Below, piece by piece: positions 9,500 to 39,578 of a stretch of DNA of 42,018 nt. The number at the start of each line of letters is the position of its first letter. Within the stretch, counting starts at the first letter, position 1. Origin of the DNA: a virus; the IMG/VR virus record IMGVR_UViG_3300021090_000055, positions 1 through 42,018 of that record; one strand, 5' to 3'. The notes under the pieces are model-generated. The model did not search any database and had not been told where the DNA came from. It saw only the letters and a list, made by a program, of their open reading frames with translations. Both the position numbers and the translations under genes were made by a program.

Positions 9500-9856
9500 A
9501 TGGCTGATCCCAACTACCCGAACCTGCCGCCGATCATCAAGGCGGCGATCGACGACTACGTTCTCAACCACCACTGCAAGGGCGACTTTGTCATGGCGGT
9601 GTTGGCGAACGACCTGCGCGGCGCCGTCAACCGCGCGGACCCGAAGAACAGCGAGCCTGCTGTGTGGCGCGAGATCATCGGCTACGTCTACAACGAGGTC
9701 CCGGCGCCGGCGCTCGTTGACGTCGACGGCTGGCTCATGGGCTGCCTGCAGCCCGACGAGATCCACGCCTGCAAGTTTCGATCCGCTCCGTGGGAGCAGA
9801 TGGAGTTTAGCGCCACCTGTTTGTGCGTCTGCCACGAGTGGATGCCGGTGGCGTGA
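9500..9856 (+). CDS. Hypothetical protein, 118 aa
   Basis: The ATG is chosen over an upstream in-frame TTG that lies inside the promoter; CCGGAGGA precedes it by 5 nt. The product is acidic with helical segments (IIKAAIDDYVLNHHCKGDF, VMAVLANDLRGAVN, VWREIIGYVYNEV) and a C-terminal cysteine group (HACKF, CLCVCHEW). No family recognised. As first gene after promoter P3 it is probably well expressed. It overlaps the next start by GTGA. Confidence 0.72.
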   Translation: MADPNYPNLPPIIKAAIDDYVLNHHCKGDFVMAVLANDLRGAVNRADPKNSEPAVWREIIGYVYNEVPAPALVDVDGWLMGCLQPDEIHACKFRSAPWEQMEFSATCLCVCHEWMPVA

Positions 9857-10047
9857 TCGGCTACTGGCAGCGGGATGTCGTGCGCACCTTCCCCGGCTTC
9901 CATGTCTGGGAGGGCGTCGAGGTCCTGCTGTCCTGCGGGCACGTCATCGTTCGCGCCACCGATCTGCTCCCAGACGCTCTCCCCTGCCGCAAGTGCTGGC
10001 GCGCCAACGACCGGGCCATTCGCCTTCTCTACGAAAGGAAACCATGA
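9853..10047 (+). CDS. Small zinc-finger-like peptide, 64 aa
   Basis: I take the GTG that overlaps the previous stop (GTGA), the coupling used throughout the operon. The peptide has SCGHVIVR (residues 28-35) and LPCRKCWR (about 44-51), a C-x-H plus CxxC set that can hold one zinc. It ends four bases into the ATPase gene. Role unknown; similar tiny zinc proteins follow the ATPase. Confidence 0.65.
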   Translation: MIGYWQRDVVRTFPGFHVWEGVEVLLSCGHVIVRATDLLPDALPCRKCWRANDRAIRLLYERKP

Positions 10048-18873: not shown

Positions 18874-19812
18874 ATGCTCCAAGCGCGCATCTTCGTAACC
18901 GGCGGCGCCGGCTTCCTGGCCCGGGCGCTCTACCGCCGGGCTACCCGTGAGAACTGGCCAGCAACGTTCACCTGCTTCAGCCGCGACGACGCCAAACACG
19001 TCGCCCTGCGGCGCCGCTACCCGAATATCCATTGCATACGCGGCGACGTCGCCGGCGATCGCGACGTCCTCGCCGGCGCGATGCGCGGGCATGACCTGGT
19101 CGTCCACGCGGCTGCCGTCAAATATGTCGACCTCGCTGAAACGGCCGTGTTCGACACGGTGCGGGTGAACGTCCACGGCTCCGAGAACGTGGCGATGGCC
19201 GCCATCTCCGCCCAGGTGCGGCGCGTCATCGGCATCAGCACCGATAAGGCGGCGCTGCCGGTGAACGTCTACGGGATGACCAAGGCGGTCATGGAACGGA
19301 TCCTCGTCGAGGCCGACCGCCTGGCCACCGAGACGGAATTCACGGTCTGCCGCTACGGGAACGTCGTTGGGTCGACCGGCAGCGTGATCCCCATGTTCAA
19401 ACGCCAGTACCAGGAGCAGGGCTCGGTGACCGTCACCGACCCGGCGATGACGCGCTTCTGGATGAGCGCGGACGCAGCGATCGACACTATCGTCGAGGCC
19501 TCGCGCTGCAAGCGTGGCTCGACGGTTATCCCTGTGCCCCAGGCCGCATCGATGCGCACGGTCCTGGAGGCCTGCGGCATCCCCACGACCTGCGCGCGCG
19601 TGGTGGGCCTGCGCCCGGGCGAGAAGATCCACGAGCTGCTTATCCACGAGCAGGAGTCGGTGCGCTGCTACCAGAACGGCTACGGGTATTGGGAGTTGCG
19701 GCCGCCAGGCGAGGTCCACGGGACGCAGCAGTTCTCACTGAGCTCGGAGAACGCCATCTCTCTGTCGGCCGAGGAACTCTCCGCGTTCATCGCGGATTCG
19801 GAGGGCATCTAA
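18874..19812 (+). CDS. PseB/FnlA-type UDP-GlcNAc 4,6-dehydratase
   Basis: A 312-aa extended short-chain dehydrogenase. The NAD(P)-binding motif is TGGAGFLA (residues 9-16); HAAAVKYVDLAE (78-89) is close to the HAAALK..p..E block of the PseB/FlaA1/CapD/FnlA group; the active site is STDKA (122-126) with Tyr133 and Lys137 in YGMTK. The substrate-side motif CRYGNVVGSTGSVIPMF also fits. Known family members remove water from UDP-GlcNAc to make a 4-keto-6-deoxy sugar, some with 5-epimerisation. No membrane anchor, so it is cytosolic. It opens the glycosylation operon. Whether it inverts C5 cannot be read from the sequence. Confidence 0.88.
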   Translation: MLQARIFVTGGAGFLARALYRRATRENWPATFTCFSRDDAKHVALRRRYPNIHCIRGDVAGDRDVLAGAMRGHDLVVHAAAVKYVDLAETAVFDTVRVNVHGSENVAMAAISAQVRRVIGISTDKAALPVNVYGMTKAVMERILVEADRLATETEFTVCRYGNVVGSTGSVIPMFKRQYQEQGSVTVTDPAMTRFWMSADAAIDTIVEASRCKRGSTVIPVPQAASMRTVLEACGIPTTCARVVGLRPGEKIHELLIHEQESVRCYQNGYGYWELRPPGEVHGTQQFSLSSENAISLSAEELSAFIADSEGI

Positions 19813-20627
19813 TGGTGATCCACATTCTCGGCGCCGGCGGAATGCTCGGGCAGGCGCTCATCAAAGCCTGCGAGGCTAAGGGCCAGCCGTGCATTGGCTG
19901 GGGCCATCATGTTGTGGATATCAGCGACCCTATCCAGGTCGCTGGCCTGGTCACCAGGACCATGTTTCCTAACGACGTCATCATCAACGCCGCCGGCGCC
20001 ATCCCATTGAAGAATCCTTCGGCGATTGAGATGCTGCGGACGAACGCTCTCGGCCCCTGGAACGTCGCCGAAGCAACCCGCCAGGTTGGCGGTATCGCCG
20101 TCGTCCACGTCTCCACCGATTGCGTGTTTGCCGGCCGGAAGCCCCGCAAATCCGGTTACGACGCTGGTGATGTACCTCGCCCACCGATGGATCTCTACGG
20201 CCGTTCGAAGCTCGCCGGCGAGGTAGCGATGGAGCATGTCATCAACGTGCGCACCTCGTTCGTCGGTCCGGAGCACGGCCTCTGGAAGCACATCGTGGAG
20301 CAGCCCGGCCGGGTCAATGGCTGGAGGGATACATCCTGGTCGGGGTCGACCGTGGATGCAGTCGCGGCGAGCCTGCTCATAATCGCCACCATTCCCAATC
20401 GGCTCGGCTGCCATCGCCCCGAGCGCCTTGGCTTGCACCGCCGCGGCAACATCGAGCACCTGGCCACCGAGCGGCCGCTCACCAAACTGGAGGTCTGCGA
20501 GTTGCTCTGCAAACACCTCGGAGGGCCTCCGCCTACGCCGGGCGTCCATGGCGCCGGCGTCTATCGCGCCATGGAACCGACCATCGTCCTACCGTCGCTC
20601 GCTGAAGCCCTTGGAGAACCCCTGTGA
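19812..20627 (+). CDS. RmlD/FnlB-like nucleotide-sugar reductase
   Basis: TAATG overlap with the dehydratase. The 271-aa SDR protein has GAGGMLGQAL (residues 8-17) for NAD(P)H, INAAGAIPLKNP, and the catalytic STD (101-103), Tyr129 and Lys133 in DLYGRSKLAGE. This is the dTDP-4-dehydrorhamnose reductase (RmlD) pattern, also used by WbjC/FnlB, which works with a PseB-like dehydratase towards N-acetyl-fucosamine-type sugars. Together with the preceding gene it could reduce a 4-keto-6-deoxy amino sugar. The C-terminal part is longer and divergent (LTKLEVCELLCKHLGG), so substrate is uncertain. Confidence 0.85.
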   Translation: MVIHILGAGGMLGQALIKACEAKGQPCIGWGHHVVDISDPIQVAGLVTRTMFPNDVIINAAGAIPLKNPSAIEMLRTNALGPWNVAEATRQVGGIAVVHVSTDCVFAGRKPRKSGYDAGDVPRPPMDLYGRSKLAGEVAMEHVINVRTSFVGPEHGLWKHIVEQPGRVNGWRDTSWSGSTVDAVAASLLIIATIPNRLGCHRPERLGLHRRGNIEHLATERPLTKLEVCELLCKHLGGPPPTPGVHGAGVYRAMEPTIVLPSLAEALGEPL

Positions 20628-21331
20628 CCTCTATTGCGGTAGTCATCCCCGTGGGCCCGCGGCCCTCACACCAGCGCTACCTGCAGGAGCTGATGACCTC
20701 CCTCGCAACGCAGACGCGGCCCGCCGACCAGCTGGTCTTCGTCGACGACATGGCCAACCTCGAACTCGACGAGCTGAGCGAGATGTACCGGCGCTTCAGC
20801 GGATCGGCGGTCTGGCCCGAGATCCATATCGTCCGCAACTATTGGCTGCTCGGAGTCGCCGGCAGCTTCAACGTGGGCGTCGCCTACGCCACGCTCGAAA
20901 ACGACCTGGCGTTCATGATGGGCGCCGACGACGTCATGCGGCCGACCTGCCTGGAAGAGACGGTCCGCTGCTTAGGATTGCACGGCGGCATCGACGCCTA
21001 TTACTACGCCGGGCTCAGCTACATGGACACGCTCGAGGAGCAGACGGTGCCCTGCAACGCGGCCGCCGTCACCCGCGGCCTCTGGCAGATGACCGGAGGA
21101 TTCCCCGTCGAGTCGGCGGTCGGTGCTCCCGACTGCGCGCTCGTCTCGATCATGATGACCTACATGAACAGCCGGCTGATCCCCATCGCCGGCGGCGCGC
21201 CCCTGGTGGACTACCGCCGGCACGCCGAGACCGATACCGCGACGCGTGGCCCCGCCTGGCAGGGCCCGATCCTCGAGTCGAGGAACATCCTCACGCGCGA
21301 CTGGCAGGCACCTGATTGGGGGCGAATGTGA
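20624..21331 (+). CDS. Family 2-like glycosyltransferase
   Basis: GTGA overlap with the reductase gene. The 235-aa protein has the GT-A beginning SIAVVIPVGPRPSHQRYLQE and LATQTRPADQLVFVDDM, a nucleotide-sugar metal site candidate AFMMGADDVMRP (about residues 105-116), and a C-terminal acceptor region YYYAGLSYMDTLEE to VDYRRH. Single-domain and soluble. It would transfer an activated sugar to an unknown acceptor, plausibly a virion protein given the setting. Confidence 0.85.
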   Translation: MTSIAVVIPVGPRPSHQRYLQELMTSLATQTRPADQLVFVDDMANLELDELSEMYRRFSGSAVWPEIHIVRNYWLLGVAGSFNVGVAYATLENDLAFMMGADDVMRPTCLEETVRCLGLHGGIDAYYYAGLSYMDTLEEQTVPCNAAAVTRGLWQMTGGFPVESAVGAPDCALVSIMMTYMNSRLIPIAGGAPLVDYRRHAETDTATRGPAWQGPILESRNILTRDWQAPDWGRM

Positions 21332-22026
21332 TACCGATCTCGATCGTTGTGACCACCTACGTGCCGCCCGATACGACGCGGGCCGACGCTTTGCTGATGG
21401 CAGCCGAGTCGTGGCGTTCGCGTCTGTGCTCCGAAGGGTTCATAGACCTCATCGTTGAGGGCGATGGGAGCCCCGACGACGCGTGGCTTCGAAAGCTGGA
21501 AGACGTCTGGCCGGAGCTGCGCTACGAGACCGGCCGCGGAGGCGTCGGCGCATCGCTCAACCGCGGGCTTGCCAAGGCGTTCGAGCGTTCTCCCATCGCC
21601 CTCTACGCGGTAGACGATTGGGCGTTGACGGAAGACTTCAACATCTCGCCATGGGTCCAGATGCTCGAGGAGAACACCCAGATCGGCTGTGTCCGCCTGG
21701 GCCCACCGCACCCAGGGATCACCGGGACCGTCATCGCCGCCTCCTCGAACTGGCAGGGATGGGCGCTCCGGCTCGACCCGGCCGCCGGTGGCATCATCGC
21801 CGCCCAGCGGCCGGCTCTCTGGCACCGGCGCTTCTTCGACCGCATCGGACCTTGGAAGGAGAACTGTTCGGCCCTCGAATGCGAGGCCGATATGAACAGT
21901 CGTTGGGCCGTGGATGCCCAGCGCGAACTCCTCCACACGCCGGAGATCGTCCTGGCCCTGCCGCATCCCTGGTACCACATCGATACCGTTAGTCTCTCAG
22001 CCATCAATCCAGGAGAACGATCATGA
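21328..22026 (+). CDS. Family 2-like glycosyltransferase
   Basis: GTG overlapping the previous stop (GTGA); an in-frame TTG 12 nt earlier is less likely. The 232-aa product begins ISIVVTTYVPPDTTRADALL and has GVGASLNRGLAKAFERSP followed by IALYAVDDWALTEDF, whose DD matches the metal-binding site of GT-A enzymes. WKENCSALECEADMNSRW may form the acceptor side. It shares the 'vDDW' type with the gene at 22586, so both may have the same sugar donor. Confidence 0.8.
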   Translation: MIPISIVVTTYVPPDTTRADALLMAAESWRSRLCSEGFIDLIVEGDGSPDDAWLRKLEDVWPELRYETGRGGVGASLNRGLAKAFERSPIALYAVDDWALTEDFNISPWVQMLEENTQIGCVRLGPPHPGITGTVIAASSNWQGWALRLDPAAGGIIAAQRPALWHRRFFDRIGPWKENCSALECEADMNSRWAVDAQRELLHTPEIVLALPHPWYHIDTVSLSAINPGERS

Positions 22027-22589
22027 GCTGCGACGCGCACAAGCTGGCGGTCACGCGCCGATTCCTCGACTGGGCCGACGTGGATCTCATCCGCGAACTG
22101 ACGGCGCTCCTGGACCGCGACCGCGATGTTGTGGTCGTGGACCTCGGCGCCGGCTCCGGCACCACGGCCGGCGCCGTTTGGGCCGAACGGTCCCAGCGCA
22201 TCCGAATCACGACCTACGATATCGACCCGACAAATCTCCATTGGTCGGGCGTCTTCATGTCGAACATCGGAGCGGCGATCGACGAGGCCTGGCAGGGTCA
22301 TCTGAAAGACTCGACGGAAGCGGCCGCGGATTGGGGCGACGAATCGATCGACCTGCTCATGCTCGACACCTCGCACACCTACGAACAGACCGTCGCCGAA
22401 CTCGCCGCCTGGCTGCCGAAGGTCCGTCGCGATGGCTGGGTATGGTGTCACGACTACCGTGGCGATTACCCGGGCGTGACGCAGGCTATCGATGACCTCG
22501 TCGGAGCTGGTGATATCGAAACGTGGAAGGTCGAGGGCCTCGGGTGGTCCGGCAATCGCCCGCGAATGACGCAGCCGGAGGCGGCATGA
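22023..22589 (+). CDS. SAM-dependent methyltransferase
   Basis: ATGA-coupled. The 188-aa protein has a Rossmann motif I VVVVDLGAGSGTTAGAVW (Asp40, glycines 42-46), motif II ITTYDIDPTN and a motif IV-like IDLLMLDTSHTYEQT followed by GWVWCHDY. This is the Methyltransf_24/Macrocin-O-methyltransferase-like group, which often methylates sugars. In this operon it likely adds an O-methyl group to a transferred sugar (inference). Confidence 0.85.
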   Translation: MSCDAHKLAVTRRFLDWADVDLIRELTALLDRDRDVVVVDLGAGSGTTAGAVWAERSQRIRITTYDIDPTNLHWSGVFMSNIGAAIDEAWQGHLKDSTEAAADWGDESIDLLMLDTSHTYEQTVAELAAWLPKVRRDGWVWCHDYRGDYPGVTQAIDDLVGAGDIETWKVEGLGWSGNRPRMTQPEAA

Positions 22590-23269
22590 CCTGGCCGAAC
22601 GTCTGCATCATTCTCCTCACCTACGAGCGCCTCGAGTACGCCAAGCGCACCCTGAAACTCGCGCTCGACGGCATCGCCTACAGCGGCCGCCTCTCCGTTC
22701 ACATCGCCGACGACGGCAGCGGCCCGGGATACATCGACGAACTCGTGCAGCTGGCCGGCTGCTATCCCCACCTGACCGGCATCTCGACCACGAACGCCGA
22801 GCGTGGTGGCTATGGGAAGAGCTACAACATGGCGACGATGGTGGTCCACCACGACAACCCCGTGCTGCTGCCGCTCGAGGACGACTGGGAACTCCTGCGC
22901 CCGCTCAACCTCGACCCGCTCATCGAGACCCTGGGAGCCGGCGCGGGCATCGGCTGCATCCGTCTCGGCTACCTGGGCTTCACGCAGGACCTGCGCGGCC
23001 GCTTCGTTCACGCCGGCGGTGGCACCTACCTGCTGCTCGACGAGGACAGCCCTGAGCCGCACGTCTTCAGCGGCCATCCTCGCCTGGAGACGCGTGCATG
23101 GGCGCGAGAGGTCGGTCCCTGGCCCGAGGGATTGGGCGCCGGCGCCACGGAGTTCGCGGTCTGCCACCGACCGCAGGCGCGCCGCGGGATCGCCTGGCCC
23201 ACCGACCTGGTGCTGACCAGCGGTAACCTCTTCGGCCACTTCGGCGCTATCCAGGCGAGGGACGATTGA
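22586..23269 (+). CDS. Family 2-like glycosyltransferase
   Basis: ATGA overlap. The 227-aa product starts VCIILLTYERLEYAKRTLKL, an unmistakable GT-A opening, followed by IADDGSGPGYIDELV, GGYGKSYNMATMV and LPLEDDWELLRPLNLDP with the DD metal site. The C-terminal part (PRLETRAWAREVGPWPEG) sits where acceptor specificity lies. Third single-domain glycosyltransferase of the operon, more like the second than the first. Confidence 0.85.
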   Translation: MTWPNVCIILLTYERLEYAKRTLKLALDGIAYSGRLSVHIADDGSGPGYIDELVQLAGCYPHLTGISTTNAERGGYGKSYNMATMVVHHDNPVLLPLEDDWELLRPLNLDPLIETLGAGAGIGCIRLGYLGFTQDLRGRFVHAGGGTYLLLDEDSPEPHVFSGHPRLETRAWAREVGPWPEGLGAGATEFAVCHRPQARRGIAWPTDLVLTSGNLFGHFGAIQARDD

Positions 23270-23466
23270 TGAACGCCCAGGAATTCAGGCAGCAGCGCCA
23301 GGCGATGCGGCTCTCGATGCAGGCCATGGCCTTTCGCAGCGGCATCAACAAGGCGTACATCTCCGAATGGGAAACGGGCATCCGGGTACTCGACCCCGAA
23401 CGCATCGCCCGGCTGGAGGCCGCCCTGGAATCGCCCATCTGCCCCGCCTGCAAGAGGCCGTTTTGA
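23269..23466 (+). CDS. XRE-family HTH protein, 65 aa
   Basis: TGATG overlap on both sides. The peptide is almost only a helix-turn-helix: FRQQRQAMRLSMQAMAFRSG, INKAYISEWETGIR, LDPERIARLEAAL, matching the XRE core including the recognition helix 'ayISewEtG'. It ends with CPACKRPF, a zinc knuckle. It probably regulates transcription, perhaps of its own operon; no dyad lies nearby, so the target is unknown. A regulator embedded between glycosyltransferases is uncommon. Confidence 0.85.
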   Translation: MNAQEFRQQRQAMRLSMQAMAFRSGINKAYISEWETGIRVLDPERIARLEAALESPICPACKRPF

Positions 23467-26201
23467 TGCGCGTCTTCATCCATCCGCAGATCTCGGGCGA
23501 GGACACCGGCCAGGGCGGCATTCGCCGCGTGATCGAGGGCCAGCGCCGACACCTGCCCGAGCATGGCATCGAACTTGTCGACGACCCGGCCGAGGCAGAC
23601 GTCATCGCCTGCCACGTCCAGATCCCCCCAGAATACCTGCGGGACTATCCCGACAAGGCGTTCGTGCACCACTGCCACGGGATGTATTGGGCCGAATACG
23701 AGTGGCCGAAGTGGGCGAACGAGGCGAACACCAACGTGATCGACGCCATCCGCGCCGCAGACGCGGTCACGGTGCCAACCGAGTGGGTCGCCCGCATCGT
23801 CGAACGCCATACATGCCGCAAGCCCTGGGTGGTGCCGCACGGCCTCGACCTCGAGGAGTGGATGCCCGGGCCCGGCGCCGGCGTACCCTATGTGCTCTGG
23901 GACAAGACCCGGCCGGACCCGGTATGCGACCCGCGGGTTCTCAACGACCTGGCCGGCCTCATGCCGGAGATCCAGTTTGTCTCCACCTTCGGCGAGGTCG
24001 CCCCGAATGTGACCATCACCGGGCACCAGGCCTTCGCTGGCGCCCGCGAACTCACGCGCAGCGCGCACGTGTACCTGGCGACCTCCCGCGAGACCTTCGG
24101 CATCGCCACCCTGCAGGCGATGGCCTGTGGCGTACCCGTGGTCGGCTACGACTTCGCCGGCCAGGCGGAGATCGTCACGCACATGGTCGATGGGTACCTG
24201 GCCGAGCCGGGCAACCTCAACGACCTGGCCGCCGGCGTGCGCTGGGCGTTCGCCAACCGTGATGCCGCCGGCGCCGCGGCGCGCGCGACGGCCCAGAAGT
24301 ACTCATGGGACTATCCGTCGCTCATGTACGCCCAGATCTACGGTGAGGCGCTCGAACATCGCCGGCGCCAGGTGCCGCGCGTCTCGTTCATCGTCCGCGC
24401 CTATAACATGGGCCGCTGGCTCGGGGAGACGCTGCAGTCGATCAGCGCCCAGACGGTCCGGGACTGGGAATGCATCATTGTTGACGATGGCTCGACGGAC
24501 GATACGGCCGTGGTCGCCGAAATGTACACGCGGGACCCACGCTTCACGCTCCTGCGCCAGGCGAACGGCGGCATCGTCGACGCCATGATCAGTGGCATCG
24601 AGGCATCGCGCGGCCGCTACGTGATGGCGGTGGACGCCGATGATCGGCTGACCCCGAACGCCATGGAGCTGCTCGCCGGCGCCCTCGACAAGGACCGCGC
24701 CATCCACGCCGCCTATGGGAACCTGTTCTTCGTCTCGGAGGACGGCACCACGGCGATCGACTTCTCGTCCGACGGGCGCATCATCGAATCCGGGCACAGC
24801 GGTTGGCCGATGCAGTTCCGCTGGGACTGGCAGGCGCTGGGCCGCAACCTCCTGCCCTATTGCACGATGTACCGGCGCGAGGCCTGGGACCTCACGGGTG
24901 GCCACCGCCGGCGCTGCGCGACCGCCGAGGATGCCGACTTCTGGCTGCGCATCAGCTCCTATGGTTTCCGCCCAGCGATGGTGTCGGAAGCCGACGTACT
25001 CATCTACCGCGTCCGGGGAGACAGCTACTCGCGACAGGTCACGCCTGTCGATTGGGCAGCCTGGTTCCCCTGGCGCGTGGATGCATGGCTGGCGCCGGCG
25101 GGCGCGGTGACACAGGAGTTGCTTCCCCTACCGTCACTAGACCCGCCGGCGGTGGCTGTTGTCATCCCCGTGGGGCCCGGGCACGAGCGCCTGGTCATGG
25201 ACGCGATCGACAGCGTCGATGCACAGAATTTCCGCTGGTGGGAATGCATCGTCGTCAACGACAGCGGCCGCGAACTGCCACGGATGCCAAGCTGGGTGCG
25301 TCTCGTCGAGAGCCGCGACGAGCAAGATCGTCTGCATCGCTTCGGCGGTGTTGCCCAGGCCCGGAACGCCGGGATCGCAAGCGCGCGCGCCGCGCACTAC
25401 CTGCCGCTCGACGCCGATGACATGCTCGAGCCAACCGCCCTGCAGGTGCTATGGGAAGCCCACAAAGAGCGCCCGGACGTCATCCTCTACACCGACTTTT
25501 GGCAGGACCAGGACGGTAAATGGACCATCTGGCGGGCGCCGGACTGGGACGCGAACCTGCTGCTCAGCAAGGGTGCCATCGCCGGCGTGACCGAACTCGT
25601 GCCCGTCCGCTACTGGCATCAGGTCGGTGGCTACCCTGAGGACACAGCCTGGGAAGACTGGGCTTTCAAACTGCTCTGCGCCGAGGCGGGCTTTTGTTCG
25701 GCGCGAGTCGCGCGGCCGCTCTTCACCTACCGCAAGCACACCGGGCGCCGGAGCAGCGATAATTGGGCCACGTTCGAACGCAGCAAGGCCGATATGATGC
25801 TGCGATTCGGTGATTACTGGTCGGACGGGAACGTCCCGCCGAGGAGGACACTCTTGGCATGTGGCTGCAGCGGAAACGCACGCGCGACGGCATATCCGCC
25901 GGCGCCGATCCTGCCGGACGGCAGCACCGGAGGCGACATGGCGCTCATCCGCTACGACGGCGAGCGCATCGCGACCTTCCATCTCAAGGGGCCGTCAGGG
26001 ACGCAGTACCACTTCGCCAAGGGCGAGGAACTCTACGCCTTGGCGGCAGACGAAGCCTTCCTGCTTGACCAGCAGGGCTTTGCCAAGGTCGACGTCGCGG
26101 CCGCGGACCAGCCAGGCGACGCTCCGATCCTGCAGTCGGCTCAGACCGGCAGCGCGGAAATACCCGCTGAGACCCCGTCAGATGCCCAGGGCGTCAAATG
26201 A
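23466..26201 (+). CDS. Three-domain glycosyltransferase (GT4-GT2-GT2)
   Basis: TGATG-coupled, 911 aa. Residues 1-300 form a GT-B/GT4-like unit: MRVFIHPQISGEDTGQGGIR, WVVPHGLDLEEW, and YLATSRETFGIATLQAMACG with the Ex7E-like donor site. Residues 304-560 are a GT2 unit: VSFIVRAYNMGRWLGETLQS, IIVDDGSTDDT, VMAVDADDRLTPNAM. Residues 562-800 are a second GT2 unit: VAVVIPVGPGHERLVMDAID, CIVVNDSG, LPLDADDMLEPTAL. From about 825 a small beta domain follows, MALIRYDGERIATFHLKG with GTQYHFAKGEELYALAADEA, resembling short phage virion proteins. Such a protein could build an oligosaccharide in one pass. Confidence 0.88.
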   Translation: MRVFIHPQISGEDTGQGGIRRVIEGQRRHLPEHGIELVDDPAEADVIACHVQIPPEYLRDYPDKAFVHHCHGMYWAEYEWPKWANEANTNVIDAIRAADAVTVPTEWVARIVERHTCRKPWVVPHGLDLEEWMPGPGAGVPYVLWDKTRPDPVCDPRVLNDLAGLMPEIQFVSTFGEVAPNVTITGHQAFAGARELTRSAHVYLATSRETFGIATLQAMACGVPVVGYDFAGQAEIVTHMVDGYLAEPGNLNDLAAGVRWAFANRDAAGAAARATAQKYSWDYPSLMYAQIYGEALEHRRRQVPRVSFIVRAYNMGRWLGETLQSISAQTVRDWECIIVDDGSTDDTAVVAEMYTRDPRFTLLRQANGGIVDAMISGIEASRGRYVMAVDADDRLTPNAMELLAGALDKDRAIHAAYGNLFFVSEDGTTAIDFSSDGRIIESGHSGWPMQFRWDWQALGRNLLPYCTMYRREAWDLTGGHRRRCATAEDADFWLRISSYGFRPAMVSEADVLIYRVRGDSYSRQVTPVDWAAWFPWRVDAWLAPAGAVTQELLPLPSLDPPAVAVVIPVGPGHERLVMDAIDSVDAQNFRWWECIVVNDSGRELPRMPSWVRLVESRDEQDRLHRFGGVAQARNAGIASARAAHYLPLDADDMLEPTALQVLWEAHKERPDVILYTDFWQDQDGKWTIWRAPDWDANLLLSKGAIAGVTELVPVRYWHQVGGYPEDTAWEDWAFKLLCAEAGFCSARVARPLFTYRKHTGRRSSDNWATFERSKADMMLRFGDYWSDGNVPPRRTLLACGCSGNARATAYPPAPILPDGSTGGDMALIRYDGERIATFHLKGPSGTQYHFAKGEELYALAADEAFLLDQQGFAKVDVAAADQPGDAPILQSAQTGSAEIPAETPSDAQGVK

Positions 26202-28127: not shown

Positions 28128-29648
28128 ATGGTCGCCATCAAGAACTCGAAGGTCGTCAAGAACACCCAGAGCCGCGTCTTCACAATTGAAGGCGGCGCCA
28201 ACCCGGGGACCTCTCCCGTGTACCAGGGATATGCCCGCGCCATGGGCCTCGCCTGGCCCCAGGGGGCAATCACCCCGGTCCGCATCCCGAGCGCCACTCT
28301 CTACGACCGCTTTGATATCGTCGCCACCCTGCAGGCACAGCAGGGGCTGCCGGCCATGTCGATCGAGTCGCGCTACCGCCAGGTCCTGAGCGACCTCCTG
28401 CGCCTCGTGAAGAAAGGCTGCCAGGTGGATATTCAAGTCCACATCGGCAGCTGCAAGGCGCCTAATGACTTCCTCGGCGGCTGGACCGATGGCCACATCG
28501 TGGTTCTCCAGGGCGCCAACGCCACCGACTACACGACTGGCGACCTCGGCGCCCTCGATTCGAACGAACGCGCGATGGTCATGGAGACCGTGCCGTTCAC
28601 CGGCCTCGACCTATTCGAAATCGGCCCGATGGTATCGACGCTGCAGGCCGAGACGCTCATCACCGACGAGATCGTCGATGTCACGATCTGCGACTCGATC
28701 GCCTGTGGCAGCTGCGGCCTCCCGAGCGATGGCTGCCAGGTCGTCTTCGCGGTGGTCTCGGACTCCAGCGGTTCGCCGGGTATCCCTGCCGCGGTCATCT
28801 GGTCGGCCGACGGCGGCATCACCTGGAACAAGCGCGGCATCTTCACGCTGGGCCTCGCCGAAACGCCCACCGCCATCGCGTGCGTCGGCACCGACCTGGT
28901 CGTGCTCACGAACAACGGACTTGCCCATCACTGGATCCCGATCAGCGACATGGTCAACGCGACCGGGAGCTGGACCAAGGTCACCACCGGCTACGTCGCC
29001 ACGCATGGCCCGAACAACCTGGTGAGCATCGATCGCACGCACACGTGGATCGTCGGCGACCTTGGTTACATCTACTTCAGTGCCGATATCCGCAGCGGTG
29101 TCTCGGTGCTGTCGGCCGGTGACCTCACCGTGCAGAACCTGCTCGCCATCGACGCTACAGATATCCTCACGCTCGCCGCAGTCGGCGCCTCGAACGCGCT
29201 CTTGACCAGCAACAACGGTGGCACCACCTGGTCGCTCGTCACCGGTCCCGCGGTCGGCATCGCGCTCAACACCGTTGCGATGAGCACCGACCAGTTCTTC
29301 CAGATCGGCACGGCCGGTGGAAACCTCTACTACACCAGGAACGCTGGTCTCACCTGGACGCTGAAAGCCTTCCCTGGCTCCGGCTCCGGGGTCATCCGGG
29401 ACATCGTCATGGTCAACGACACCGTCGGCTACATGGCGCACGACACGGCGGGCTTCGTCGGCCGCGTGCTGCGGACCATCGACGGCGGCAACAACTGGTA
29501 CGTGACTCCCGACAACCCGAACATCCTGTTCCCGTCGGTGCGTCGCATCAACCGCATCGCGGCCTGCCGCGACAACATCAACATCGCCTTCTACGGCGGC
29601 CTGGGGAACGACGCCAACGATGGAAAGCTTCTGAAGGCGGCCGCCTAA
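28128..29648 (+). CDS. Major tail protein fused to Asp-box beta-propeller
   Basis: A 506-aa protein. Residues 1-190 look like a tail tube subunit (VVKNTQSRVFTIEGGANPGT, VRIPSATLYDRFD, LGALDSNERAMVMETVPF) and the gene holds the position before the chaperones. From residue 205 it carries repeated Asp-box (BNR) motifs: WSADGGITWNKRG (about 224), TSNNGGTTWSLV (361), YTRNAGLTWTLK (403) and RTIDGGNNWYVT (451), the signature S/T-x-D/N-x-G-x-T/N-W of sialidase-type propellers. No sialidase arginine triad is visible, so it is more likely a sugar-binding or shield domain. A loop with CDSIACGSCG joins the parts. Hundreds of copies would cover the tail. Confidence 0.78.
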   Translation: MVAIKNSKVVKNTQSRVFTIEGGANPGTSPVYQGYARAMGLAWPQGAITPVRIPSATLYDRFDIVATLQAQQGLPAMSIESRYRQVLSDLLRLVKKGCQVDIQVHIGSCKAPNDFLGGWTDGHIVVLQGANATDYTTGDLGALDSNERAMVMETVPFTGLDLFEIGPMVSTLQAETLITDEIVDVTICDSIACGSCGLPSDGCQVVFAVVSDSSGSPGIPAAVIWSADGGITWNKRGIFTLGLAETPTAIACVGTDLVVLTNNGLAHHWIPISDMVNATGSWTKVTTGYVATHGPNNLVSIDRTHTWIVGDLGYIYFSADIRSGVSVLSAGDLTVQNLLAIDATDILTLAAVGASNALLTSNNGGTTWSLVTGPAVGIALNTVAMSTDQFFQIGTAGGNLYYTRNAGLTWTLKAFPGSGSGVIRDIVMVNDTVGYMAHDTAGFVGRVLRTIDGGNNWYVTPDNPNILFPSVRRINRIAACRDNINIAFYGGLGNDANDGKLLKAAA

Positions 29649-30881: not shown

Positions 30882-33800
30882 ATGGCCCAGCTGCAGCCCC
30901 TTGGTTACAAAGCCGTCATCGAGGGCTTCGACGCCTACGTCCAGCAACTGAAGGCAATGCAGAAGGCGGGCGACGACACCGCCCGTGGCCTCGACGACAG
31001 CGCGAAGAAAGCCAAAGCGGCGAACGATGCGTTCGGGACCCTGCAGAAGGGGTCCGCGCTCCTGAGCGCTGGCATCCTCGGTATCGGCCTGGCATCGGTC
31101 AAGATGGCCGCGGACTTCCAGCACCAGATGAGCCAGGTCGGCGCCATCGCCGGCGCCACCGACGAGGAGATGGGCAAACTCAGTGCGGCGGCACTGAAGA
31201 TCGGCGCCGATACGGCGTTCTCCGCCAGCCAGGCGGCCTCCGCCATGGAGGAACTCGCCGCCGGCGGCCGCTCCGTCTCACAGATCATCGGCGGCGAAGC
31301 GCTCGCCGCGGTCAACCTGGCGGCTGCCGGCAACTACGGCCTCGCCGATTCCGCCCGGGTCATCGCGACGTCGATGTCGGTCTGGGAAGGCACGCAGATC
31401 TCGACCAACGAGGTCGTCAACCGGCTGGCCGGCGCCGCCAACGCTTCCCGGTTCGGCGTGGATGATATGGCCCAGGCCGTCGCCGCCGGCGGCGGTGTGG
31501 CCAAGGCGGCCGGCGTCGACTTCGGCGACTTCAGCACGGCGATCGCAGCGACCGCCAACTCGTTCAGCTCGGGCTCTGATGCCGGCACGTCCTTCAAGAC
31601 TTTCATCACCTCTTTGACCGGGAACAGCAACCAGGCGAAGGACGCCCTCGCCGCCCTCGGGATCATCACGAAGGACGGCTCAAACGCCTTCTATGATGCC
31701 GCCGGCAACCTCAAGAACATGTCGGAGATCACCCAGATCCTGCATGACGCGCTCGGCGGGCTTTCCCAGGAACAGCAGACCGTCGCGATGAAGACGATCT
31801 TCGGGAACGATGCATACCGGACAGCCGCCGGGCTGATGAAGCTGACCGGTGACGAGTTCACGGCCATGTCGGCGAAGATGAAAAGCACCGACGCGGCAGC
31901 GGTGGCCAAGCAGAGGATGGACAACCTCTCCGGCGGCATCGAACAGCTGAAGGGCAGCATCGAGACCGTCGGCATCGCGATCGGTACGCGCGCGATCCCG
32001 ATGCTCACCGGCCTCGCCGCCGGCGCCACGAAGGCCACCAATGCCTTTGGTGAGCTGCCTGTGAGCACGCAGAACCTGGTGCTCGCCATCGGCACGATGG
32101 TGGTGGCCCTGCCCGCGATGATTGGCCTCGTCCAGAAGGGCGCGGTGGCGGTCCAGACCCTGGGCCTGGCCATGCAGACGGCTCGCGGCCGGGCCGCGCT
32201 CATGGCCGTCGGCATCGGGGCGATCATCATCGGGCTGGACCTGCTCTCGCAGAAGGCCACCGGCGCCAGCCTCACGGATCGGGTCTTTGGCGACGTCGGG
32301 AAAACGGAGGCCGGCAAGAAGGCGGTGGACGAGTTCGCCGCGGCCCTCCTGGCCGGCGGTGAGAAGGCCGACAAGTCTAAGATCGCCCTGGATCAGCTCG
32401 CGAAGACGACTGCCGAGTTCGCGAGCACCAGCGCGGACGCCGCCGGCGAGCAGTCCGGCCTGCAGAACGCCCTGCTCGGGAACGACAACCGGATTTTCGG
32501 CTTCAATGTCGGCCTGTCGGGCGGCATCGACAACCTCAAGAAGTTGAAGGCGGAGACGGAGGTTTCCGCCAAGGCCCTCGTCGAAAACGGCGCCACCGTC
32601 TACCAGCTGAAGTCTGCGTATGACGCGCTGCCGCCGACGCTGCAGAAGACCTTTGACGACGTTACGCACGTTTCGGCCGCCTGGAGCATCGCCCAGGACG
32701 CCGTCGAGAAGGAGATCTTCGCCGTTCGATCGGCGGACAGCGTCCACGCCGCGGCCGCGAAGAGCATGGAATACACCGGTGCGGCGATCGCCAAACTGGG
32801 ACAGACCGGTGAAGAGCTTGCGACCTACATGGGGGCCACCTGGGGGCCGACCCTGAACTCGGTCTTCGCCACGTTCGAGGGCGATACGAAGAACAAGCTC
32901 GCGTCCATCCAGGGGAAGTTCCCCGACGTCCAGATCTCCGCCGATGGGCTGCGGGCCTACCTCAAGGAGACGTTCGGACCGGACGGTGCATCGGCCTTCG
33001 ACGATTTCGAGAAGAAGGTCGAGTCGTCCTTCAAGGACATGAAGGGCGCCCTCGCCGAGATCTTCCCCGCCGTGGACGAGTCGTTCACGAACTGGAAGAA
33101 GCGAATCGACCAGATGGTCGTCGACCAGCAGAACTTCGAGAAGAACCTCAAGATCATCTATGCCGGCATCACCGCGGCCGGCGTGGCCTTCCCGGACGAG
33201 ATCCTGGGGGCGCTCGCCGACAAGGGGCCAGCGTTCGTGGCCATGTTCACGAAGCTCTACCTGGAGGATCCGACGAAGGCGCTCAAGGTCCTGAAGGTCG
33301 CGGCGCCGGCGGCGATGGGCGTGGCCGCCGACCAGATCACCAACCGCGTTATCGGCGGCATACCTGGCATGACGGCCGCGACCACGGCCCTGATCAACAA
33401 GCCCTTCACGGCTGCGGCCGCGGCCTCGCGCGCGGAGATGCTCGCGAGCGGCGGACCGTCCATCGTGCGTGGGCTGGCCGATGGGATCGCCGCGAACTCT
33501 GGGTTAATCGACACGGCCGCGCAGAAGACCGGATCGATGGTTCCGCCTGGCGTGGCGAAGGGCATCCGGGACAACGATGCGCAGGCCAGGTATGCCGCGG
33601 AATGGTTGGTGTCCGCCACCACCGAAGCTGCCCGTTTGAAAGCCGTGGAAACGTCGCCGTCCATCGGGGCCGCAATCTCACAGGGCGTCGGGTCCGGCAT
33701 CTCCGCGCGGATCAGCAATCCTGTTGCGGCAGCAGTCACGATGATCGGAGAGGTTCTGCGGGCGGCGAAGGCCAAGGCAGAAGCCCAGTCGCCATCCGAG

Positions 33801-34730
33801 CTGTTTGCCCGGGAGGTCGGCAAGCCGATCCCGCAGGGCATTGCCAAGGGCATCGACGACGGGTCGATGACCGTCACCAGCGCCCTGGACAAGCTCTTTG
33901 GACCGGCGAGCACCTGGTGGATCGGGCTGAACAAGACGAAGGAGCAGCTGCTCGCGTGGTGGGCCGATACCGGGGCAAAGATTGGCGTCGCGGCTGGCGC
34001 TGCGATCGGTGCCGGCAGCGCTGCTGGCGGTGCCGGGTCTGGCGGCCTTCCACCGCTGAACACCAGCGGCAACGTCGGTGGCGCCGGTGGATTCGGAGGC
34101 GCCGCGGGGGGCAGTTCGTTCGCCGCGCCCAGGCCCGACAAGAGCGGCAACATCCCTGGTGTGCAGGGCTACGATGTGACTCAGAAGCCCGACGGCAGTT
34201 ATGAATACACCGCGCACAACTACGGCGGAACGGCGCCAGGGCTGCCCATCAAGCAGCCGGACGGCACCTACGTCTCGGATAGCCAGAGCAACCATCCCGG
34301 GCAGTACTGGAACGGCACCGGCTGGTATTCGACGAACGTCAACAACCCGAAGTCGAACGCGGACTATGGCCAGGCGTCGAGCCAGCCGGGCGGCTTCCAC
34401 ATCGATATTGCCACGGGCTTCCTGGTCCCCAACAAGAGCGCGGCGATCGGCCTGAACTACTCGACGAAGGATCAGGCTGTGTGGGTGCACCGGGGCGAGG
34501 CGGTGATTCCCGAGGCCTACAACGCCTGGGGGCCCGGCAGTTCGGTGAGCGCGCCGATGGGTGGTGGCGGCGCCGGCGGATCGACCAAGTCGATAACGAT
34601 CGATATGCGCGGCGCGCAACTCACGGGTACACTCGCGGAGAACGAGGCGCTGATGACGCGAGTCGCGCGCCAGGTCCTGAACGATGACCTCGGCCGCGGC
34701 TCGGTGCTCGCCGGTGTCACGTTCCGATAG
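30882..34730 (+). CDS. Tail tape measure protein
   Basis: 1282 aa, implying a tail of roughly 190 nm by the usual 0.15 nm per residue rule. The N-terminus is helical (AYVQQLKAMQKAGDDTARGL) and continues into a TP901-type domain: HQMSQVGAIAGATDEEMGKL, TAFSASQAASAMEELAAGG, VNLAAAGNYGLADSARVIAT. Hydrophobic helices near residues 385-440 (LVLAIGTMVVALPAMIGLV, ALMAVGIGAIIIGLDLL) fit a membrane-active segment. The last 250 residues change to Gly/Ser-rich linkers and a small beta domain with YSTKDQAVWVHRGEAVIPEA, often seen at tape measure C-termini. It fixes tail length and is ejected ahead of DNA. Confidence 0.95.
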   Translation: MAQLQPLGYKAVIEGFDAYVQQLKAMQKAGDDTARGLDDSAKKAKAANDAFGTLQKGSALLSAGILGIGLASVKMAADFQHQMSQVGAIAGATDEEMGKLSAAALKIGADTAFSASQAASAMEELAAGGRSVSQIIGGEALAAVNLAAAGNYGLADSARVIATSMSVWEGTQISTNEVVNRLAGAANASRFGVDDMAQAVAAGGGVAKAAGVDFGDFSTAIAATANSFSSGSDAGTSFKTFITSLTGNSNQAKDALAALGIITKDGSNAFYDAAGNLKNMSEITQILHDALGGLSQEQQTVAMKTIFGNDAYRTAAGLMKLTGDEFTAMSAKMKSTDAAAVAKQRMDNLSGGIEQLKGSIETVGIAIGTRAIPMLTGLAAGATKATNAFGELPVSTQNLVLAIGTMVVALPAMIGLVQKGAVAVQTLGLAMQTARGRAALMAVGIGAIIIGLDLLSQKATGASLTDRVFGDVGKTEAGKKAVDEFAAALLAGGEKADKSKIALDQLAKTTAEFASTSADAAGEQSGLQNALLGNDNRIFGFNVGLSGGIDNLKKLKAETEVSAKALVENGATVYQLKSAYDALPPTLQKTFDDVTHVSAAWSIAQDAVEKEIFAVRSADSVHAAAAKSMEYTGAAIAKLGQTGEELATYMGATWGPTLNSVFATFEGDTKNKLASIQGKFPDVQISADGLRAYLKETFGPDGASAFDDFEKKVESSFKDMKGALAEIFPAVDESFTNWKKRIDQMVVDQQNFEKNLKIIYAGITAAGVAFPDEILGALADKGPAFVAMFTKLYLEDPTKALKVLKVAAPAAMGVAADQITNRVIGGIPGMTAATTALINKPFTAAAAASRAEMLASGGPSIVRGLADGIAANSGLIDTAAQKTGSMVPPGVAKGIRDNDAQARYAAEWLVSATTEAARLKAVETSPSIGAAISQGVGSGISARISNPVAAAVTMIGEVLRAAKAKAEAQSPSELFAREVGKPIPQGIAKGIDDGSMTVTSALDKLFGPASTWWIGLNKTKEQLLAWWADTGAKIGVAAGAAIGAGSAAGGAGSGGLPPLNTSGNVGGAGGFGGAAGGSSFAAPRPDKSGNIPGVQGYDVTQKPDGSYEYTAHNYGGTAPGLPIKQPDGTYVSDSQSNHPGQYWNGTGWYSTNVNNPKSNADYGQASSQPGGFHIDIATGFLVPNKSAAIGLNYSTKDQAVWVHRGEAVIPEAYNAWGPGSSVSAPMGGGGAGGSTKSITIDMRGAQLTGTLAENEALMTRVARQVLNDDLGRGSVLAGVTFR

Positions 34731-34740
34731 AGGGTGAGAG

Positions 34741-35286
34741 ATGCCGGACTGGCCCGTCGAAGCTGCGCAACCCCTGCCGGTCTTCCTGTCGACGATCGAG
34801 GACTGGGTCCGCAAAACCGGGCGGCTGGCTGATTACACGTCGGCGGCTTTCATTGATGGAGCGGTCTCCGTCCCCCTCATCGTGCGCAGCACGTTCACCG
34901 CCAAGAAACTGTTCTGTTTGAACGGCGCGATCCTGGTCGGGAACTGCCAGATGGCCATCGCGCGGTCCGGAGTCAGTCCTTCCTTCGGACCTGCGCCCAC
35001 TTCCAGCATTACCCTGGCGTCGATCGTTGCCCAGGCCGGTATCAGCGTCTGGCAAGCATTCGACATCCCCGACGTTATCCTCACTCCCGGGCTCTATTAC
35101 CTGAGATATGGTTCTGACGCCATCACCGGGCAAGTGCAGCGTCTCTACGCTCCCACCGCGAATCTGGGTGAGACGTGCTACCTGGCCGGCTGCTGGCTTG
35201 GCACATATCCGCTCTATGGGGGTAGCTTTTTCCAGGGTATGTTCGACGGAACGGTACCGATCCTCGCCGTGGGAGGGGTGGCCTGA
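34741..35286 (+). CDS. Tail-tip protein A1 of an A-B-A-B paralog set
   Basis: ATG 8 nt after a GGGTGAG ribosome site. The 181-aa product is beta-rich, with KKLFCLNGAILVGNCQMAIA and AQAGISVWQAFDIPDV, both nearly repeated in the third gene of the set. The fold looks like a small jelly-roll or sandwich: 'tvkkl.cfnGa...GncdialfG....p...' then 'pG.Yyl.yg.d..tg.v.rl'. Position just after the tape measure suggests a distal tail or side-fibre component, possibly receptor or glycan binding (inference). It ends in a TGATG overlap with the next gene. Confidence 0.7.
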   Translation: MPDWPVEAAQPLPVFLSTIEDWVRKTGRLADYTSAAFIDGAVSVPLIVRSTFTAKKLFCLNGAILVGNCQMAIARSGVSPSFGPAPTSSITLASIVAQAGISVWQAFDIPDVILTPGLYYLRYGSDAITGQVQRLYAPTANLGETCYLAGCWLGTYPLYGGSFFQGMFDGTVPILAVGGVA

Positions 35287-35831
35287 TGCCAGGATGGCCA
35301 GATCGACCCCGCTTCTCTCCGTCCGTCAGCATCTGCAACGCCGAGAATTGGTACAGGGAAACCGGCGTGCTCACGCTCTGGACCGGCGCCGCCTGGTCGA
35401 CGGCGAACCTCGCGGTCTACACGCCGATCTACGTGCCGAAGCCGATGTCGCTCACGCAACTGGGCGTGTTCCACGGTGGGGTGGTGAGCGGCAACATCGA
35501 TGTCGGCATCTTCTTGCCCGACAGCGAGGGCAAGCCGGGCGCGCGCCTGGTCTCGAAGGGATCAACGGCCCAGGCCGGCATCAATAGCCTCGTCCTGCAC
35601 AACACCGCGGACGTCTGGGTCGATGGTCTCGTTTACCTGGCGTGCGCCCTGGATAACAATACCGGCCAGCTGATGCGGCTGGTCGCCCTGGCGGCGGACG
35701 GTTCGGGCCCGAACGAAGGGAGTATTTTCACGCAGGCCGCGGCCTTCCCACTGCCGGCGAACGCGACACCGAACGCCGCCGGCGTCGCTGCCAATATCCC
35801 GGTTATGATCGCAACTGTGGGGATGAGCTGA
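35286..35831 (+). CDS. Tail-tip protein B1 of the paralog set
   Basis: TGATG-coupled, 181 aa. It starts MPGWPDRPRFSPSVSICNAE, then NWYRETGVLTLWTGAAWSTA, FHGGVVSGNIDVGIFLPDSE, GKPGARLVSKGSTAQAGINS and GSIFTQAAAFPLPANATPNA. The same blocks recur in the fourth gene, so B1 and B2 are close paralogs. It shares the general fold with A1 and A2 (short WxxxTG, 'G.cdvgif', 'pG.vYla.a.d..tg...rl'). Role as for A1. Confidence 0.7.
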   Translation: MPGWPDRPRFSPSVSICNAENWYRETGVLTLWTGAAWSTANLAVYTPIYVPKPMSLTQLGVFHGGVVSGNIDVGIFLPDSEGKPGARLVSKGSTAQAGINSLVLHNTADVWVDGLVYLACALDNNTGQLMRLVALAADGSGPNEGSIFTQAAAFPLPANATPNAAGVAANIPVMIATVGMS

Positions 35832-36415
35832 TGGATTACCCAAAGCCGATCGATACGCAGGTCGAGCCGATCTTCCTGACGACGGCCGCGGAATACCGGC
35901 GCCAGTATGGGAAGGTGCCGCTGCTCACGTCAGCGGTCTGGGGCATCGCGAATCAGATCCTTGCTGGACCCGTTAAAGTTCGCCAGCGCATGACCGTTAA
36001 GAAACTCTATTGCTTCAATGGTGCCGCGGTGTCTGGCAACTGTGATATCGCGCTGTTCGGTCCAGCCGGCCGACTCACGGTTGGCGGATCGAACTGGATG
36101 AATCCTCAGTGGCGGTTGACGGCGGCAGGATCGACCGCCCAGGCCGGGATCAGTGTCTGGCAAGCGTTCGACATCCCCGACTTCATCATCCCTCCGGGGA
36201 TGTACTGGATCGCCTACGGCCTCGACAACATCACCGGCGCCGTGACGCGACTCGACACGCTGGCCGCGAACATGAACCAGCTCGGCCACCTGGTAAACGC
36301 GCTTTCTCTACAGGCGAGCGGCATACCGATTTTTGACAACAACGCCGGCGTTCCGCTGGCCACGCTGGCAGCCGCGGCATCGTATCCGCTGCTGGCGCTC
36401 GGAGGGATCGCCTGA
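35831..36415 (+). CDS. Tail-tip protein A2 of the paralog set
   Basis: TGATG-coupled, 194 aa. MTVKKLYCFNGAAVSGNCDI and STAQAGISVWQAFDIPDFII are almost identical in pattern to A1, and PPGMYWIAYGLDNITGAVTR matches A1's PGLYYLRYGSDAITGQVQR. It differs in the N-terminus (MDYPKPIDTQVEPIFLTTAA) and in a longer end (NQLGHLVNALSLQASGIPIF). Divergence with preserved core suggests one duplication of the A-B pair followed by change at exposed loops. Confidence 0.7.
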   Translation: MDYPKPIDTQVEPIFLTTAAEYRRQYGKVPLLTSAVWGIANQILAGPVKVRQRMTVKKLYCFNGAAVSGNCDIALFGPAGRLTVGGSNWMNPQWRLTAAGSTAQAGISVWQAFDIPDFIIPPGMYWIAYGLDNITGAVTRLDTLAANMNQLGHLVNALSLQASGIPIFDNNAGVPLATLAAAASYPLLALGGIA

Positions 36416-36975
36416 TGCCTCTCTGGCCGTCTCAGATCGTCCCGAACGACTTTGTCGACACCTTCTACCTGCCGAACACCGAGTGGTGGTACCAGCAAAC
36501 CGGCAAGGCGCCGATCGAAACGTCGGCCGCCTGGACCACCGCTAATAAGGCCGTCTACACGCCCGTGATCGTGCGCGGCATGTCCAAGCCGTCTGGAATC
36601 GCCGTCTACAACGGCGCCACGGCCGCTGGCATGCTGCAGGTGGGGCTCTATGCAGTCGATAGCGAGGGCAAGCCCGGGGCGCGGTTGATGGCGAGCCCAC
36701 CGACCCCCCAGGTTGCGGCCGACGTCGGGCGATTCACCGACGTCAATTTTGACGACGTCGGGAAGTGGGCCGGGCCCGGTGTCTATTACCTGGCCTGCGT
36801 CTTCGATGGCGCCACGGGGACGGTGACACGCCTGGCGGCGCTCACAAGCGACCAGAGTGGGCCTATCATGGGCGGGATATTCACGCAGGCGACGGCGTTC
36901 CCGCTGCCCGCGGTGGCGACCCCGGACGGCGCCGGCGTGGCGTTCAACGTCCCGATCCTCGTGATGTTCGGCTAG
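36415..36975 (+). CDS. Tail-tip protein B2 of the paralog set
   Basis: TGATG-coupled, 186 aa. It begins MPLWPSQIVPNDFVDTFYLP and has NTEWWYQQTGKAPIETSAAW, then KAVYTPVIVRG, VGLYAVDSEGKPGARLM and GGIFTQATAFPLPAVATPDG, all paired with B1. It ends the four-gene set. The FTQA.AFPLPA and DSEGKPGARL blocks are the strongest evidence for paralogy. Confidence 0.7.
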   Translation: MPLWPSQIVPNDFVDTFYLPNTEWWYQQTGKAPIETSAAWTTANKAVYTPVIVRGMSKPSGIAVYNGATAAGMLQVGLYAVDSEGKPGARLMASPPTPQVAADVGRFTDVNFDDVGKWAGPGVYYLACVFDGATGTVTRLAALTSDQSGPIMGGIFTQATAFPLPAVATPDGAGVAFNVPILVMFG

Positions 36976-36987
36976 AAAGAGGAGACC

Positions 36988-37320
36988 ATGAGCAACCCTA
37001 ATGTCGAAGCCAGCGGCACCCTCACAGCAACTGGCAGCGCCACCGAAGACACCCTGGCGACCATCAATCTCCCGCGTACGATGTCGCTGATCGTCGACCT
37101 CACCAACCTGGTCGGCGGCGACGCGGTGACGCTCCGGGTGAAACGCAAGATCCTGAGCGGCGGCGCGGTGCGCACGGTCTACAAGGAGACCTTCGCCGGA
37201 CTGCAGACGGACCCCGGCGCCATCTCCGTGCCGATCCCATCGCCGCACCAATGCATCGTCACGCTCGCGCTCGAGACCGCAACGCCCCGAAACTTTGACT
37301 GGTCCCTGGAGTCGATGTAG
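36988..37320 (+). CDS. Small beta-rich tail protein, 110 aa
   Basis: ATG after AAGAGGAGACC. The product is a compact beta sandwich (SGTLTATGSATEDTLATINL, MSLIVDLTNLVGGDAVTLRV, PHQCIVTLALETATPRNFDW), the type of single-domain protein found among distal tail and fibre genes. It abuts the next gene without a gap. No family recognised; likely virion component by position. Confidence 0.66.
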   Translation: MSNPNVEASGTLTATGSATEDTLATINLPRTMSLIVDLTNLVGGDAVTLRVKRKILSGGAVRTVYKETFAGLQTDPGAISVPIPSPHQCIVTLALETATPRNFDWSLESM

Positions 37321-38417: not shown

Positions 38418-39578
38418 ATGGCGCGATTGAACGTAATTGGCTTTGAGACCGGGGACTACAGCGAGACCGATTTTCAAAATGGCACCGGGTCGATTAGCAC
38501 TACCCAAAAGAGAACAGGTGCTTACTCATTACGAGCTAATCCTACAACGAGTACGCTCCTGTTCAGGCTGAAAACCCATGATGCCACGGGGGCTTTCGCA
38601 ACCTGGAACACCGCCAATATTTATTTCACTTTCTACTTGTGGATAGCTTCTGCCCCATCTGCCAAAACGACAATTCTGGAGGTGGAAAGCGCTGGCCCTT
38701 CACAACTACGTGTGAAACTGGACACTGATAACACTCTCACGCTCGTCTACTTCAACGGCGCTGCCGTTCAGACCCAGATAGGGTCGGCATCGGCAGCGCT
38801 TAGTACAGGCGCGTGGCACCTGATCGAGGTGAAAGGGACCGCGCTCGCGACGGGTGGTTCCTCAGTGGCCGAGCTAAAACTTAATGGCTCGGTGGTGGCG
38901 ACAGGAACCGGACTCACGGTCATGGTCACCCCGGCAAACAGCACCCATGCCTACATAGGCATGATTGATGCTGCAACGGCGGACCTCTATTTCGACGACA
39001 TTGTCATTGACGATGCTGCCTACCCCGGCGCGAGGCAGGTCAACATCCTCAAACCACGCGCGGCGGGCGCGAGCGCACAGTGGGCAACGGGCACGAGCGC
39101 TCTGTTCTCTGCGGTCAACGAAGTCCCGCACGACTCGGATACCACCTACATCGGCTCCGTCACTTCCGGTAACGCCTCCTCATTCGCAATGGACAGCAGC
39201 GCCACGGGTGGGGTGGTTGGCACGATTGGCGTCATCAAGACGGTAGGCATCTTCCGCGACGAGGGTGGCGCGTCGAGCATGTCCGTGCGTCTCCGCAACG
39301 GGGCGACGAACCGTGACACTACGGCGGTAGACCCTGGCGCAACCTATGTTGCTCTGGCTCGTTTGGACGCCACCGACCCGAACGGCGGTGGCGCATGGAC
39401 AAGCGGTGGGCTGGACACGATCGAGGCAGGAGCGGTCAACAGCGCAGCGGTAGCGGCGCGGTGCACGGCGCTCTACGTGATGGTGGAGTGCGCGGGTACT
39501 CCGTCATCAAAGGTGCATCAACTCGTCGATGCTGGCCTCGTGGACCGCGGCCTCATTTCAGCAGGATTGGTGGGATAG
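38418..39578 (+). CDS. Lectin-like (LamG/ConA-type) tail protein
   Basis: ATG 4 nt after GGGGTGAGTAG. The 386-aa protein has a concanavalin-like jelly-roll: IGFETGDYSETDFQNGTGSI, RTGAYSLRANPTTSTLLFRL, FYLWIASAPSAKTTILEVES, TGAWHLIEVKGTALATGGSS, VAELKLNGSVVATGTGL and DLYFDDIVIDD, the strand order of LamG/laminarinase-like lectins. The second half (SVTSGNASSFAMDSSATGG) is a further beta domain. Its first 300 nt are visibly poorer in GC and use other codons than the neighbours, which points to recent transfer. Likely receptor or glycan binding. Confidence 0.78.
   Translation: MARLNVIGFETGDYSETDFQNGTGSISTTQKRTGAYSLRANPTTSTLLFRLKTHDATGAFATWNTANIYFTFYLWIASAPSAKTTILEVESAGPSQLRVKLDTDNTLTLVYFNGAAVQTQIGSASAALSTGAWHLIEVKGTALATGGSSVAELKLNGSVVATGTGLTVMVTPANSTHAYIGMIDAATADLYFDDIVIDDAAYPGARQVNILKPRAAGASAQWATGTSALFSAVNEVPHDSDTTYIGSVTSGNASSFAMDSSATGGVVGTIGVIKTVGIFRDEGGASSMSVRLRNGATNRDTTAVDPGATYVALARLDATDPNGGGAWTSGGLDTIEAGAVNSAAVAARCTALYVMVECAGTPSSKVHQLVDAGLVDRGLISAGLVG

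Follow-up and report, generated by a model that had tools for sequence, protein, structure and literature searches.

Phage surface adhesins are usually homomeric. Glycan-binding decoration proteins located on phage heads include T4 Hoc, T5 pb10, SPP1 gp12, and phi29 gp8.5 (PMC7602432), and several surface domains of the mycobacteriophage Douge are reported to bind mycobacterial glycans (PMC13033339). The described protein that most closely resembles those considered here is A4L_25 of cyanophage A4 (Anabaena phage A-4L), which is chain Z of structure 9jwb; this chain is part of the capsid asymmetric unit and, with 1 copy beside 7 major capsid chains, fits one copy per asymmetric unit. A4L_25 is the only solved stand-alone relative of the proteins described below; its gene is located among tail genes even though the protein belongs to the capsid model, and virion location hence does not follow from gene position.

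Here, we analysed a 42-kb IMG/VR virus record (the window, i.e., the whole stretch of DNA under study), in which four cassette genes at positions 34741-36975, designated A1, B1, A2, and B2, are followed by a smaller gene, designated C (Table 1). This cassette is a two-paralogue version of the phage surface jelly-roll proteins, with C as a dedicated partner. Our preferred reading, which we hold with about even confidence, is that the cassette encodes a virion surface structure of the form (A-B)n plus C, a lectin-like adhesin built from two paralogues that probably decorates the capsid and of which the A-B unit was duplicated in this phage.

A preliminary description of this DNA had reported four coupled genes of 181-194 codons that alternate between two subtypes; four plus-strand open reading frames within this range were confirmed, and the subtype motifs quoted at the time were found in the right copies. 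At each internal A/B join the sequence TGATG is present, such that the stop codon and the next start codon share one base. A1 begins 10 bases past the tape measure gene, while C starts 12 bases past B2 and is preceded by a clear AGGAG; genes for an Ig/FN3-like protein and for a tail protein (phrog_1887) are located downstream of the cassette. The surroundings include a number of further genes. A 386-aa protein encoded just 3' of the cassette (38418-39578) matched phrog_14065 (E 7.1e-23) and, weakly, laminin G, and is a possible carrier of another surface-binding domain. Shortly 5' of the tape measure gene, a 506-aa protein (28128-29648) has a C-terminal BNR/YCF48-like beta-propeller and may be a tail tube protein bearing the propeller on its surface. 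A sugar-modification block (18874-26201) separates the head and tail modules, and an AAA/SMC-like ATPase (9588-11339; PF13476; phrog_1499, E 6.9e-69, unknown function) is encoded just 3' of the terminase-Mu F-like head genes.

Table 1. Cassette genes and selected neighbouring genes in the window
Feature	Position	Strand	Description	Basis
A1	34741..35286	+	181 aa, subtype A jelly-roll family member	ORF; family profile E 3.5e-42
B1	35286..35831	+	181 aa, subtype B	ORF; AlphaFold2 model pLDDT 71.6, pTM 0.74
A2	35831..36415	+	194 aa, subtype A	ORF; 40% identity with A1
B2	36415..36975	+	186 aa, subtype B	ORF; 47% identity with B1
C	36988..37320	+	110 aa partner gene, predicted small jelly-roll	ORF with own Shine-Dalgarno
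Tape measure protein	30882..34730	+	Context, outside cassette	phrog_1533 E 5.7e-82; PF10145 E 1.2e-34
Nucleotide-sugar epimerase-like gene	18874-19812		Part of sugar-modification block	
Methyltransferase-like gene	22023-22589		Part of sugar-modification block	
Multi-domain glycosyltransferase, 944 aa	23367-26201		Part of sugar-modification block	

Pairwise alignment placed all pairs among the four proteins far above shuffled sequences (200 shuffles per pair), indicating that A1, B1, A2, and B2 are all homologous and form one family. Global identity was 40.0% (z 24.8) between A1 and A2 and 47.2% (z 27.2) between B1 and B2, as compared to 32.0-34.8% (z 9.6-14.0) for the four A-B cross pairs; A1 was hence closer to A2 than to B1, in keeping with the alternation originally proposed. 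A quartet test on the four proteins identified AA|BB as the best topology, against which the other two groupings lost 27.7 log units and were rejected (p-AU 1.4e-4 and 1.7e-4); the same topology was best in every third of the proteins, with significance in the middle and last thirds only. Wider trees also grouped A1 with A2 (support 99/97 and 100/98) and B1 with B2 (98/95 and 100/96). Since forcing A1 and B1 together in a 24-row tree did not significantly worsen the fit in an AU test (p 0.126), the AA|BB claim rests on the quartet test. Codon identity at conserved residues was 0.45-0.58, close to the 0.44 expected from codon usage; synonymous sites are thus saturated and the duplication is old. 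These saturated sites, together with a longest common DNA stretch of 15 bases between copies, rule out a recent duplication as well as recent gene conversion. The AA|BB topology, the finding that almost every relative has just one A-B pair, and an independent A-B-A- array in another phage (see below) support the conclusion that the A-B pair was duplicated as one unit, long ago, in the window phage.

Relatives were gathered by two pattern scans, one with the motif GNIDVGI(Y/F) and one with a C-protein motif, which yielded independent contig sets; a pattern scan of genomes returned chance matches only, with the exception of L039, a Gemmatimonadota/Gemmatimonadales contig that also carries one adjacent pair. 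When whole records were searched with a family profile, 17 of them had exactly two members each; two of these records (G020 and G011) are near-identical, such that the pair is present in about 16 other uncultured phage records. The same profile found three members in G002 and no member in G018 and G019. In G002 (locus L046), the genes are arranged as A-B-A-, with the third gene cut by the contig end; this gene is 69% identical to the first and 30% identical to the second, and the array is a second, independent unit duplication. In a 39-row tree, labels for first and second genes required 6 changes, compared to a mean of 13.3 for shuffled labels (0 of 500 shuffles as low), indicating that A and B have been distinct for a long time in a large part of the family, although this distinction does not trace to a single split. 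One clade of all first genes and one of all second genes was rejected, as at least 6 changes are needed and this arrangement was present in 0% of bootstrap trees. Window A and B genes clustered together, with weak support (87/83), before joining the A or B genes of other phages, and, judging from these trees, the A/B split in the window lineage may have been a separate event. In L023, the two genes of the pair were sisters, with 98-100% support.

The third gene, C, is a conserved partner of the pair. All 8 loci that had been identified through A/B and had both flanks available (L005, L008, L016, L018, L019, L020, L023, and L039) carry a relative of C close to the A-B pair; C was located before or after the pair, depending on the locus, and about 1.2 kb away from it in L023. 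A leave-one-out profile recovered the window C protein with an E value of 3.4e-16, and the reverse search, which used the C motif alone, identified A/B genes adjoining or near C in 9 of 11 new contigs. C proteins did not match any entry when tested against Pfam and PHROGs. The AlphaFold2 model of C (pLDDT 81.9) is a small jelly-roll that showed no specific structural match; the best hits (Z about 10) were unrelated small jelly-rolls, and phage cement proteins reached a Z of only 7.7, which is at noise level.

For the A/B family, a model of B1 built from a six-row alignment, and of moderate quality (see Table 1), also showed a jelly-roll, with 9jwb_Z as the top structural match among 993 chains (Z 17.7, rmsd 2.5 over 154 residues, 20% identity). 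The next matches were a domain of the Douge central fibre, the lectin-like domain of Cwp84, and a domain of the Bxb1 tail tip, and carbohydrate-binding modules matched at lower Z. Sequence profiles agreed with the structural comparison; a six-member profile detected 9jwb_Z in the PDB (E 9.8e-4), and larger profiles detected A4L_25 at 1.3e-9 among A-4L ORFs and at 1.1e-8 among the phage ORFs tested. From these fold matches, we infer that A and B proteins are lectin-like and may bind glycans, with the understanding that fold alone proves no function. Pfam searches gave no match for A1, B1, B2, and C and only a sub-threshold chance match for A2. A tblastn search of A, B, and C proteins against 50,697 phage records returned nothing that passed E 0.01, and the cassette is therefore absent from existing annotation; among the queries for cultured-phage homologues, A2, the L020 A protein, and the L018 C protein had no match and B1 had a single insignificant one (E 0.6). 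Nostoc phages A1 and N1, considered as cultured relatives on the basis of BFVD rows, were rejected, as the first 50 kb of each gave no profile match.

With regard to the location of these proteins on the virion, the preliminary description referred to small tail-tip proteins. This label rests on the genes following the tape measure gene in the window, as they also do in one relative (G004), and is not supported for the family as a whole; of the 9 phages with a recognised tape measure gene, 7 (G003, G005, G006, G009, G011, G012, and G017) have the cassette upstream of it, a count in which permuted ends of these linear fragments could affect a few cases. The cassette lies between the portal and tape measure genes in G003 and G005 and just after the portal gene in L005 and L039; in L049, genes for a cement protein and a capsid protein are just upstream of C-A, and in L044 the cassette is followed by head-tail adaptor, Neck1, and terminator genes. 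The last four loci thus have the cassette in a head-module position, which is not the case for the window. In most relatives, gene order points to a surface role at the head, but it does not fix the location in the window phage. That A1, B1, A2, and B2 are tail-tip or baseplate receptor-binding proteins, in a cassette that serves the tail in the window lineage, is an explanation we consider possible, if on the unlikely side. The site after the tape measure gene, in the window ahead of the Ig/FN3-like and tail proteins, is the usual one for tail-tip genes, and domains of the same fold are found in the Douge central fibre and the Bxb1 tail tip; on the other hand, this explanation has to accommodate the head and neck neighbours in relatives, A and B proteins that each consist of one domain and lack a fibre shaft, and a closest solved structure that is a capsid protein. 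The position in the window would push annotators to "tail tip" on weak grounds. Some cassette neighbours resemble fibre or glycan-active proteins; a cellulase (GH5)-like protein is encoded directly upstream of the A-B pair in L020 (9152-10708), and a recurrent neighbour that starts with M(A/P)AP(S/T)TR(N/H/R) or similar is located just 3' of the cassette in L016, L018, L021, L039, L043, and L044, with the L039 copy matching a minor tail protein family.

The preferred reading, a capsid-decorating adhesin, includes a proposed mode of action. A and B would descend from one lectin-like jelly-roll protein, have diverged as paralogues, and act jointly, in all likelihood in the form of a hetero-oligomer that is held on the particle by C, as a putative anchor, and/or by a structural protein; this oligomer would most likely decorate the capsid, presumably also in the window phage, and could provide weak, reversible contact with host-surface glycans. 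C (or the particle) would form the base, B the more constant subunit, and A the more exposed subunit, and the ancient duplication of the A-B unit in the window phage would have led to two heteropairs. Conservation between L046 and L050 was 98% for C, 81% for B, and 63% for A; over four phage comparisons, A was never more conserved than B (with a significant difference in two) and C ranked highest in three. When conservation was mapped on the model of B1, loops were less conserved than strands for A1-A2 (22/73 vs 47/100, p 0.028), and B1-B2 showed no loss of loop conservation relative to strands. As signals of subunit exposure, these differences are modest, and the model used is of moderate quality. 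The conserved pairing, subtype order, constant partner, and unit duplication are what a hetero-oligomer predicts; the hetero-oligomer raised in the preliminary description has thus become likelier, and we infer it rather than regard it as established. A and B could instead be independent homo-oligomeric adhesins with different ligands, adjacent only through tandem duplication and never forming a heteromer. We consider this rather unlikely; tandem duplication commonly yields adjacent paralogues, the L023 sisters look as if formed separately, and the window A and B genes also cluster, weakly, but the near-uniform count of exactly two, the conserved subtype order and partner C, and the persistence of A-B alternation in two duplications that arose independently speak against it. 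The store of alternative adhesins also suggested earlier, taken here as one in which recombination would switch host range, draws on the several paralogous copies and the less conserved A1-A2 loops; it is highly improbable and was not upheld, as none of the four genes is disrupted and all are coupled in translation, the short shared DNA and saturated synonymous sites do not point to any recent exchange among the copies, and no linked silent cassette or recombinase was found. A stronger version of the preferred reading, in which an obligate A/B heteromer with C would be a widespread capsid-decorating system specific to uncultured phages, with A-B multiplied independently and A as the faster-changing outward subunit, is put forward tentatively and is, in our judgement, rather doubtful.

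If the preferred reading is correct, the cassette would represent a two-component surface module, consisting of a diverged paralogue pair and a dedicated partner, that is found mostly in uncultured phages and has stayed together as a unit in two or more duplications of independent origin. Compared to known systems, A4L_25 resembles the window proteins in fold, detectable sequence similarity, similar length, and its stand-alone domain, but is encoded by a single gene in A-4L, where a C partner was not found by profile; moreover, A-4L is a podophage, and A4L_25 was shown in its capsid. Among proteins in PHROGs, phrog_25864 (193 positions, unknown function) shows weak, partial similarity to B1 (E 2.1e-4), A2 (E 5.2e-3), and B2 (E 0.097). 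Domain 476-687 of the Douge central fibre gp20 (8zdp; Z 14.8) and the Bxb1 tail tip domain (9d93_Pa; Z 12.1) share the fold and a virion-surface location, but are embedded in long fibre proteins, whereas the window proteins are stand-alone paralogous pairs. Finally, T4 Hoc, T5 pb10, SPP1 gp12, and phi29 gp8.5 share the proposed role, i.e., a non-essential contact with carbohydrates at the virion surface, but have other folds, and none is described as a diverged paralogue pair with a third partner (PMC7602432).
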